64,000 bases of DNA from Bradyrhizobium quebecense (GTDB lineage Bacteria; Pseudomonadota; Alphaproteobacteria; Rhizobiales; Xanthobacteraceae), in the NCBI RefSeq assembly GCF_013373795.3, contig NZ_CP088022.1, forward strand, positions 6,572,001 through 6,636,000, given 5' to 3'. Below the pieces are notes generated by a model. That model did no database searches. It saw only the letters and a program-made list of their open reading frames with translations, and was not told the DNA's origin. Position 1 is the first letter of the stretch. Each line of letters begins with the position of its first letter. Shown piece after piece: positions 8,284 to 19,111 of this stretch. Position numbers and translations under genes: made by a program.

Positions 8284-8389
8284 CCGTCACCCTGAGGAGG
8301 CCGCGCAGCGGCCGTCTCGAAGGGTCGACGGCCACCAGCCGGGCCGTGCATCCTTCGAGACGCCGCTTCGCGGCTCCTCAGGATGACGG
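8284..8389. repeat. Palindromic dispersed repeat, family R, intact copy
   Basis: The element begins CCGTCACCCTGAGG and ends with the inverted arm CCTCAGGATGACGG. Inside are further complementary blocks (GTCTCGAAGG against CCTTCGAGAC). The same family, split by an IS110 element, lies at 17861-19092. Each copy offers up to two potential IS110 target sites because its ends are inverted copies of each other. Confidence 0.85.
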
Positions 8390-17719: not shown

Positions 17720-17751
17720 ATGGCCGGGCTCGCCCCGGCCATTTGCTTTTG
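17720..17751 (+). terminator. Rho-independent terminator of regR
   Basis: A perfect 9-bp stem, ATGGCCGGG with CCCGGCCAT, has a 5-base loop and is followed by TTGCTTTTG. It lies 24 bases past the regR stop. Confidence 0.85.
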
Positions 17752-17764
17752 TCCTTTCGTAGGG

Positions 17765-17836
17765 TGGGTAGAGCGAAGCGAAACCCACGCCTTCGTGCCG
17801 TGGCGACAAGCGATGGGTTTCGCTTTGCTCTACCCA
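17765..17836. repeat. Palindromic repeat with 23-bp arms, family G
   Basis: Arms of 23 bases (17765-17787 and 17814-17836) are complementary with one mismatch; the inner part of the left arm reads GAGCGAAGCGAAACCCA. The 26-base spacer contains no gene. Elements like this recur in rhizobial intergenic DNA (from memory). It sits between the regR terminator and the IS110 element. Confidence 0.8.
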
Positions 17837-17871
17837 TCCGACAGATCGTCAAAGCTTATCACCGTCATCCT

Positions 17872-18048
17872 TGTAAGTCTCGAATCGCCGGATCGGCTAG
17901 AATGTCCGGCGCGGTGACGGACGGGAGACCGCTTCATCCCAGGGCATCGAAGCCCGAACCTCAGCGCGGCGCCCCGTCCGTTGTTCCATTGAACCCGAAC
18001 AGTCGCGAGGGCCGCCTGGCGAGCCCGATTGCGCAAGGAGGGGTGCAG
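17872..18048 (+). ncRNA. Putative IS110 bridge RNA (target- and donor-binding loops)
   Basis: The non-coding left end has the layout of a bridge RNA. Stem CGGACGGG (17918-17925) pairs with CCCGTCCG (17973-17980), and CCGC (17929-17932) with GCGG (17966-17969). The loop they close holds TTCATCC (17933-17939) and ACCTCAG (17958-17964) on either side of hairpin GGGC-ATCGAA-GCCC. TCATCC equals the left target top strand, and ACCTCAG is complementary to CTGAGGT across core and right target. A second loop carries ACAGTCGC (17999-18006), identical to the element's right end including the core C. CAAGG (18034-18038) can pair with CCTTG at the left junction. Transcription is inferred; TAGAAT (17898) is a possible -10. 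Confidence 0.75.
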
Positions 18049-18981
18049 ATGGAAGCGATCTATGTTGGCATTGATGTGTCGAAGGACCGGTTGGACGTGC
18101 ATGTCCGTCCGGGCGAGGAAGCCTTTGCCGTGGCGCGTGACGGCAAAGGCTTGGAAGAGCTCGTTGCGCGCTTGCAGGCGATCTCGCCGGTGCTGATTGC
18201 GGTAGAGGCAACTGGCGGCTTCGAGACGATCGTTGCTGCTGCGCTGGCCGGCGCCCAGCTGCCGCTGGTGGTGGTCAACCCGGCCCAAATCCGGCACTTC
18301 GCGCAGGCGGTTGGTCAGCGTGCCAAGACGGACCCGATCGATGCGGCGGTGATCGCGCGGTTTGTCGAGGCCGTGAAGCCGGAGCCACGTGCCATGCCGG
18401 ATCAGGAAGCTCGGCTGCTGGCTGAGCTGGTCAGCCGCCGACGGCAGATCATCGAGATGATCGTTGCCGAGCGTCAGCGCGAGAAGCGCGCCGAGAACGT
18501 CCGCGTCCGCAAGAGCCTTGCCCGCCATATCAAGGTCCTCGAGAAGGAGCTGCCGGAGATCGACAACGACATCGACACGCTGGTGCGCGGCTCGCCAGTC
18601 TGGCGCGCCAAGGAGGAGCTGCTGGTCAGCTTTCCTGGTGTGAGCAACACCCTCGCGCGGACCTTCCTTGCCGAGGTGCCGGAGCTCGGCACGCTCAATC
18701 GGCGCCAGATTGCGAGCCTCGCCGGTCTTGCCCCGTTCACCCGCCAGTCGGGCCGCTGGAAGGGCAAGAGCATGATCGGCGGCGGAAGAGCCAAGCTGCG
18801 TGCCGGGCTCTACATGGCCGCTCTGTCGGCCAGCCGATACCATCCGCAGCTCAAGGTCTTCTACCGGCGCCTGGTGACCGCTGGAAAGCCCAAGATGGTC
18901 GCCCTCATCGCCGTTGCGCGCAAAGTCCTTACAACCCTCAACGCCATGCTCAGGGACCAAAAACCATGGCAACCCGCTTGA
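18049..18981 (+). CDS. IS110-family transposase (DEDD recombinase)
   Basis: A 310-residue recombinase. The N-terminal RuvC-like DEDD domain has Asp in YVGIDVSKDRLDVH, Glu in IAVEATGGFE and the DxxD pair in KTDPIDAAVIARF. A coiled linker (about 130-195) follows. The C-terminal Transposase_20 domain contains SFPGVSNTLARTFLAEVPELG and the serine region YMAALSASRY. ATG 18049 has AGGAGG upstream, overlapping the 3' end of the predicted bridge RNA. The length is full for the family and the frame is unbroken, so the element may be active. Confidence 0.92.
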   Translation: MEAIYVGIDVSKDRLDVHVRPGEEAFAVARDGKGLEELVARLQAISPVLIAVEATGGFETIVAAALAGAQLPLVVVNPAQIRHFAQAVGQRAKTDPIDAAVIARFVEAVKPEPRAMPDQEARLLAELVSRRRQIIEMIVAERQREKRAENVRVRKSLARHIKVLEKELPEIDNDIDTLVRGSPVWRAKEELLVSFPGVSNTLARTFLAEVPELGTLNRRQIASLAGLAPFTRQSGRWKGKSMIGGGRAKLRAGLYMAALSASRYHPQLKVFYRRLVTAGKPKMVALIAVARKVLTTLNAMLRDQKPWQPA

Positions 18982-19111
18982 CCAAGAACACAGTCGCTGA
19001 GGTGCGAGCGCAGCGAGCCTCGAAGGATGAATGGCCCGGCTCGTGGCCGTGCATCCTTCGAGACGCGCGTTCCGCGCTCCTCAGGATGACGGATTACGAT
19101 AGCGCTTGATG

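Follow-up and report, generated by a model that had tools for sequence, protein, structure and literature searches.

Positions 17870-18998 of the window, the 64,000-nucleotide stretch of Bradyrhizobium quebecense DNA analysed in this work, correspond to one IS110-family insertion sequence, an IS110-group element of 1127 bp with a long non-coding left end, a recombinase gene and a right end of 15 nt from gene to core (Table 1). Both Pfam domains of the recombinase, DEDD_Tnp_IS110 and Transposase_20, exceed the cut-off, and two solved-structure sequences match at E <= 0.001, namely the IS621 transposase (8wt6 and others) and the ISCro4 transposase (9t56). The alignment with the IS621 recombinase spans residues 3-307 of 310, and the DEDD and serine positions, which in IS621 are D11, E60, D102, D105 and S241 (PMC11208158), are conserved. 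Proteins 85-92% identical are found in named Bradyrhizobium genomes, the nearest being 91-92% identical. Within the start of the transposase gene (window 18119-18152) lies an inverted repeat (AAGCCTTTGCCGT / ACGGCAAAGGCTT) with perfect 13-bp arms separated by 8 nt.

Table 1. Features of the element and its insertion site (window positions), and two remnants in genome G496.
Feature	Position	Strand	Basis
Left target: repeat arm CACCGTCATC	17860..17869	+	Sequence, L152 comparison, repeat count
Left core (CT dinucleotide), where left target and left end meet	17870..17871	+	Sequence, four-copy comparison, uninterrupted site L152
Left end (177 nt, non-coding), putative gene of the bridge RNA	17872..18048	+	Sequence, comparative structure, covariance model
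TAAGTC, predicted place of -10 once ends join	17874..17879	+	17 nt from TTGACC; sequence, inference
Target-loop stem, 5' side (helix 1, alignment columns 55-67)	17913..17925	+	8/13 pairs compensatory; 96.3% of cells paired
Left target guide region CTTCATCCC	17932..17940	+	TCATCC matches target top strand; covariation, resampling
GGGC...GCCC hairpin in target loop	17942..17955	+	Helix 3, pairing in 98.9% of cells
Right target guide ACCTCAG, complementary to CTGAGGT	17958..17964	+	Covariation, resampling
CG beside right target guide, handshake-guide position	17965..17966	+	Inverted match 17952-17966 / 18995-19009 (I7); IS621 analogy
Target-loop stem, 3' side (alignment columns 120-134)	17973..17987	+	Helix 1
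Left donor guide ACAGTCGC, equal to right end plus core C	17999..18006	+	Right-end scoring, resampling
GGGC...GCCC hairpin in donor loop	18009..18026	+	Helix 5, 100% of cells paired, almost invariant
Right donor guide CAAG and proposed handshake base G	18034..18038	+	Overlaps likely ribosome-binding site AAGGAGG (18035-18041)
IS110 DEDD recombinase/transposase, 310 aa	18049..18981	+	Pfam PF01548 2.6e-23, PF02371 1.2e-17; IS621 8wt6 5.2e-34, ISCro4 9t56 1.3e-33
TTGACC, predicted place of -35 of a junction promoter	18978..18983	+	Overlaps stop codon; sequence, inference
Right end CACAGTCG (left donor sequence)	18989..18996	+	Sequence, right-end scoring
Right core CT	18997..18998	+	Sequence, four-copy comparison, uninterrupted site L152
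Remainder of interrupted composite palindromic repeat (GAGGTGCGAGC ... CCTCAGGATGACGG)	18999..19092	+	Inverted repeat I2, L152, repeat count
L215 / L225 remnant	G496:C1 about 177285-177415	+	Donor-guide ACAGTCG-CT joined directly to right target
L216 / L229 remnant	G496:C1 about 1392922-1393039	-	Donor-guide ACAGTCG-CT joined directly to right target; left terminus decayed

This genome (9.17 Mb) holds four copies of the element, each inserted into one and the same arm of a palindromic repeat that is dispersed in the genome, with the joins ...CATC-CT-TGTAAG... and ...ACAGTCG-CT-GAGGTGC... in all four and flanks that are unrelated outside the repeat. Compared with the window copy, one of the other three has no differences and another has two changed bases over the element, which suggests recent spread. 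Copy L004 / L219 (G000:C1:3557467-3558590) has lost one nucleotide close to the 3' end of its transposase gene, at the place equivalent to window 18930, and has four substitutions, its left end and junctions being unchanged; copy L003 is inserted at ACATCC, not TCATCC. The junctions were set by an orthologous-site comparison of the 30 best same-genus loci around the neighbouring gene, 17 of which, this genome included, have both neighbours. In one of these (L152), with flanking genes 97% and 94% identical, CACCGTCATCCTGAGGTGCGAGCGCAGCGAGCC stands uninterrupted at the orthologous place; thus, the insertion consists of the element and a second CT exactly, with no target duplication beyond this short core. 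The right junction motif of the element was absent from the orthologous place in the other 15 relatives. Together with the same junctions in the three other copies, the L152 site confirms that the element interrupts a repeat arm with CT on either side, as the initial annotation had stated, and its coordinates for the left end and both cores were correct. Among inverted repeats of at least 12 nt, none connects both element ends except the guide-junction match I7, and a DNA search of 146 genomes of the genus (best three candidates each) returned only partial matches outside this genome, some of them at contig ends.

The interrupted repeat is both dispersed and palindromic, as indicated by 102 TCATCCTGAGG sites against 1 for the reversed control and 46 TCATCCTGAGGTG sites against 0 in this genome; the former count also bears out the description of the guide as repeat-specific. 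The repeat is similar to the CGTC repeats of Di Nocera et al. 2013 (PMC3733652) in containing CGTC and in occurring as head-to-head pairs; that paper describes associations of CGTC repeats with transposase genes as few and fortuitous. An unoccupied arm of the target repeat (TCATCCTGAGGAGC) is found at window 8373-8386 on the minus strand. Directly left of the interrupted repeat lies a 40-nt inverted repeat, 80% complementary and with GGGTAGAGCGAAGCGAAACCCA (window 17748-17853), and similar sequences occur at the orthologous place in several same-genus loci.

Guide segments and structure of the left end

Four segments of the left end had been proposed as guides, TTCATCC at 17933-17939 and ACCTCAG, ACAGTCGC and CAAGG at the places listed in Table 1, and all these positions proved right. 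TCATCC, ACCTCAG, ACAGTCGC and CAAGG occur once each in the left end, and in 200,000 first-order Markov resamplings of it they arose by chance in 5.0%, 0.42%, 0.29% and 17.9% of cases, respectively, the first two jointly in 0.02%. Therefore, the target pair and ACAGTCGC are unlikely by chance, and CAAGG alone is weak. The sequence agrees with the claims that TCATCC equals the left target top strand, that ACCTCAG is complementary to CTGAGGT, and that ACAGTCGC is identical to the right end including the core C; the match of CAAGG to CCTTG stands as to its positions and has a published IS621 counterpart, but carries little weight by itself at that chance level. Mismatches occur at the second core base, where the left target guide has C17940 and the left donor guide G18007 against T, and the left target guide also fails to match one left-target base. 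By analogy to IS621, whose handshake guide pairs with the target base adjoining the core following strand exchange (PMC11208158), CAAG would be the right donor guide and its fifth base G the handshake guide, and the pairing partner of the CG at 17965-17966, once strands are exchanged, would be the donor CG left of the core. The segment CAAGG overlaps AAGGAGG, the likely ribosome-binding site of the transposase (window 18034-18041), so that guide use and translation could exclude each other.

The comparative structure obtained with RNAalifold from 29 representatives comprises 30 pairs, 11 of them showing double changes. Five pairs, formed by the left terminus with the right donor guide, were left out of the structure test because they were counted as a DNA-RNA match. 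For the remaining 25, 97.9% of cells were paired and 44 cells were double-changed against 11.9 in shuffles, none of 500 shuffles reached any structure measure, and a slid alignment was 35-55% paired, the structure having been derived from the same 29 sequences used to score it. Most of the support lies in the stem of the target loop, which holds 8 of the 11 pairs with double changes, and the donor loop is weakly supported because its helices are nearly invariant. Of the initially described two-loop left end with GGGC/GCCC hairpins, the target-loop stem is thus backed by compensatory changes and the hairpins by 98.9-100% pairing, whereas the donor loop varies too little to add to this. Folding of the single sequence, which the initial annotation had suggested as a check, came out negative: the fold of 17872-18049 was no stabler than shuffles (z 0.04; 96 of 200 shuffles folded as well), and so the structure rests on comparative evidence. 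Rfam gave no match at gathering score over the left end, the sole match being sX15 on the opposite strand (E 0.63); Rfam 15 may hold no bridge-RNA family. Among the 150 of 4844 first-look candidates that were scored in this genome, the covariance model R1 found exactly the four complete copies and no orphan bridge RNA.

Eight right-end variants were scored for the donor side (ACAGTCGC, ACAGTTGC, ACAGCCGC, ATAGTTGC, ACGGTTGC, ACGGATAC, CAGATGGC and ACAGTTGA). In every scored element with a left end, the best 8-nt window within the last 110 nt before the gene had 0 or 1 mismatch, a level expected by chance in about 4% by rough arithmetic; L106 and L113, with 3 and 2 mismatches, fail because they are without a left end. 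On these sequences, the putative left donor guide is co-varying with the right end. The right donor guide CAAG is uninformative, being nearly invariant, and the handshake base varies too little over 72 rows: 62 C-G, 1 T-A (L024), 3 T-G, 3 without CAAG and 3 mismatched, the latter being L191 as well as L189 and L194, for which the script picked the wrong CAAG. Regarding the putative junction promoter, TTGAC lies 20 nt from the core C in 69 of the 78 elements with a right-end motif (81 in total), 17 nt from it in two, and is missing from seven; since TTGACC sits at the end of the gene, its conservation may have another cause.

Guides and targets among related elements

We compared 81 loci with a related recombinase, of which 68 have a recognisable left end and were used for the left guides, and 63 of these, with a full right flank, for the right guides. 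Guides were assigned by alignment column and not by target search, and core positions, being fixed by the end motifs, were unscored. The search pattern found no left end in 13 loci (L017, L021, L022, L025, L026, L027, L084, L106, L108-L111 and L113), which were missed because of contig ends, remnants or differing end sequence; 16 short fragments (L028-L043), the partial matches L044-L072 and relatives listed but not fetched were unused, and the plasmid relatives are 14 fetched among 800 plasmid records. L074 and L020 are one locus from two collections, with identical guides and flanks, and L186 and L188 are near-identical; duplicates carry limited weight, since counting goes by guide class.

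Over positions +1 to +4, the right target guides (15 types, 63 elements) matched their own target at 3.76 of 4 bases against 1.74 for swapped targets, the best shuffle gave 2.91, and none of 20,000 reached the observed value; over +1 to +5 the figures were 4.48 of 5 against 2.24. Per position, from +1 to +5, the match to the own target was 1.00, 0.97, 0.92, 0.87 and 0.73, and that to the targets of other classes 0.64, 0.29, 0.34, 0.34 and 0.48. Sliding the register by 1-3 bases lowered the matched fraction (+1 to +5) from 0.90 to 0.25-0.47; this control alone keeps the relatedness of the elements, which the target-swap shuffles ignore. For the left guides (32 types, 68 elements), positions -6 to -1 gave 3.90 of 6 against 2.51, with 0 of 20,000 shuffles reaching this and the signal mostly at -5 to -2; with three registers allowed, the values were 4.32 and 3.23. 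In 12 of 15 right classes and 11 of 32 left classes, no other target scored higher than the class's own. Left-guide matching is therefore weaker than right; the left guides resemble one another in many cases, and inspection by eye suggests a register that shifts by one base between lineages. Instead of unchanged guides at unrelated targets, the outcome that the initial annotation took as refuting, the opposite was found, as 15 right and 32 left guide types change with their targets.

Individual cases illustrate this diversity. Elements whose right guides read CTGAGG, CTCTCCC, CTCCCC, CTCACCC and CTTCTCC adjoin targets that have those letters exactly or nearly, and the same holds for CTCAGGGG, CTCAGCC, CTCGACC and CTCTGTC. 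Genome G223 contains two element types: five copies have a protein 77% identical to that of the window and guides for TCATC-CT-GAGG, and the five of the other type, 65% identical, carry guides that fit CT-CACCC targets (four of these five were checked for target). The right guide of L018 matches 10 of 10 target letters, core included, while L076 is an exception with a TCATCC guide at a TCACCC target.

The supply of repeat variants was considered in nine genomes having both TCATCCTGAGG and TCACCCTGAGG, from 11 queried; the elements of G238 and G735 have other targets, and L009 was excluded, its genome being outside those queried. The guide-matching base was present at 24 of 25 insertions against 18.1 expected (P about 0.002, with insertions treated as independent), L076 being the exception and L003 (ACATCC) scored as a match at the tested base. 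The C-guided elements L018 and L020 are both at C sites, and the genome of L018 is richer in T sites (77 against 35); a guide that merely tracks the commonest repeat variant is ruled out for L018, where guide and target are the rarer one. At these 25 insertions, target choice follows the guide rather than the supply.

Interpretation and relation to known systems

The covariation of guides and targets, together with the alignment to IS621 in which the DEDD and serine positions are conserved, supports the initial reading of a bridge-RNA-guided transposon, and we hold it as highly probable that this is an IS110-group insertion sequence whose bridge RNA names its target repeat. In a mechanism taken over from IS621 (PMC11208160, PMC11208158), the element would leave as a circle, whose joined ends would place TTGACC 17 nt from TAAGTC and so create a promoter that drives the left-end RNA; pairing would be guided by this RNA, with ACAGTCGC and CAAG of its donor loop reading the circle junction, and the recombinase would exchange strands at the CT core, the circle entering one of the many repeat copies. 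By this analogy we infer that the left-end RNA is transcribed and that the element is active.

The recombinase protein could instead recognise the repeat alone, the guide-like matches being leftovers or coincidence, as might be argued from the common target of most close relatives and from a suggestion, older than the discovery of bridge RNAs, that palindromic REPs are recognised by some transposases much as regulators recognise their own (PMC1525189). However, guide and target change jointly over 15 right-guide classes, a slide of one base loses the match, and in G223 two related element types with different guides occupy two kinds of target, each fitting its own, so we regard recognition by protein alone as very improbable. 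Somewhat less remote, yet still quite unlikely, is that the copies are immobile today and stem from a past burst or a segmental duplication, with activity since lost. The deletion in the L004 gene and the finding of only partial matches outside this genome (146 genus genomes, best three candidates each) would fit such a history; conversely, the flanks of the four copies are unrelated beyond the repeat, two further copies are identical or nearly so to that of the window, and named Bradyrhizobium genomes contain relatives whose protein is 85-92% identical. The IS110 and IS1111 groups share a transposase family, and an IS1111 member also targets REPs (PMC11187229); nevertheless, we give practically no credence to an IS1111-group element, which would have a downstream guide RNA and subterminal inverted repeats. 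Neither was seen in this element, whose long non-coding end (177 nt) is upstream with only 15 nt downstream to the core, and whose left guide precedes the right one, as in IS621.

The bridge RNA of IS621, an IS110-group element of E. coli, was shown experimentally (PMC11208160), and its structures are described in PMC11208158. The window element, read as bridge-RNA-guided, resembles IS621 in its homologous recombinase with aligned DEDD and Ser, its CT core, its long left end with a two-loop RNA, its target in a REP element, its guide order, and the promoter across the joined ends, which was shown in IS621 and is predicted here. It differs in that protein similarity is distant (phmmer 5e-34), its guides read another repeat (TCATC-CT-GAGG), and its right guide matches mainly over 4-5 non-core bases. 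IS110 is reported as the family most represented among REP-associated elements, including ISRm19 of S. meliloti with 4 of 4 copies in REPs (PMC1525189). ISRm19 and ISPpu9/ISPpu10/ISPa11 are likewise IS110-family elements in the wider sense with all copies in REPs (PMC1525189); they differ in host and repeat, and are set beside the window element by their description in that paper, which predates guide RNAs. In IS1111-type seekRNA elements, a transposase-bound non-coding RNA picks the target and natural re-programming among relatives has been reported, but this RNA lies downstream with its guide regions in reverse order (PMC11187229); ISEc21, the IS110-type member in that work, is compared by its description there. 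Within our covariation set, ISMex17 and ISMno7 (annotated names; Methylorubrum/Methylobacterium plasmids) have recombinases 53-56% identical and the same left-end layout; their guides are different, the right ones reading CTCACTT and CTCTGTC.

Earlier work also describes REP targets and, across IS110, covariation of guide with target (PMC11208160). The system itself is known, because the literature already covers bridge RNAs, natural re-programming and the targeting of REPs by IS110 (PMC11208160, PMC11187229, PMC1525189); what is added here is this member, its uninterrupted site and the surrounding covariation set. In the literature searched, which included the accessible text of PMC3733652 and PMC5082802 and outside which most subscription papers and preprints lie, no description was found of this element or of the guide-ended remnants presented below. 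As a probable bridge-RNA system with well-defined boundaries, the locus combines several target copies with an uninterrupted control site and relatives whose natural guides differ, and the set supplies guide/target pairs, long right target guides included, for targeting rules and tool building. It also offers an explanation for insertion in a dispersed palindromic repeat, namely that the guide names the repeat, and several relatives appear to name others.

Guide-ended remnants and other IS110 loci

Genome G496 contains two bridge-RNA loci without a transposase match (Table 1), in both of which the left end is followed by the target loop and the donor guide, whose DNA replaces the right end. 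By eye, the non-core bases of the right target agree with the own right target guide at 4 of 4 positions in L215 (CTGAGG) and 3 of 4 in L216 (CTCTCC). The pattern CGAMCYCGRACAGTCGCTV had 10 matches in 391 family and 397 order genomes, which overlap, and none for its reversed control; eight of the 10 were discarded as unrelated sequence without a left end. The exact guide-ended form is therefore rare, as only the two matches in G496 are real. The left donor guide repeats the right end in DNA, which gives the bridge RNA gene a second, spare right end, and the mini elements hold a left end, a target loop and all the letters of a donor junction. These remnants are most simply explained by a deletion between 9-bp direct repeats; recombinase action is possible. 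That guide-ended mini elements of ~130 nt are made by the recombinase and movable in trans strikes us as rather unlikely; if true, IS110 elements would gain a route to MITE-like offspring.

A 71% identical relative (L021, Microvirga MAG contig JAQSWQ010000044.1), at a GGTCCC-CT-CCCCC site, lacks the whole target loop though its transposase is open over 310 codons; it may be a dead copy, an assembly fault or a trans-dependent element. Genome G004, of the same genus, harbours four copies of a second IS110 lineage, 41-42% identical (L199, L203, L208 and L212), whose site resembles another dispersed repeat (GGGTCC / CCGG...), with the loop letters GGGTCC and GCCGG matching by eye and a core that looks like CC. 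A more distant IS110, 35% identical, is present in G496 (L217, G496:C1:228200-229900), and is one of seven places in that genome with an equal, weak bridge-RNA model score (29 bits).
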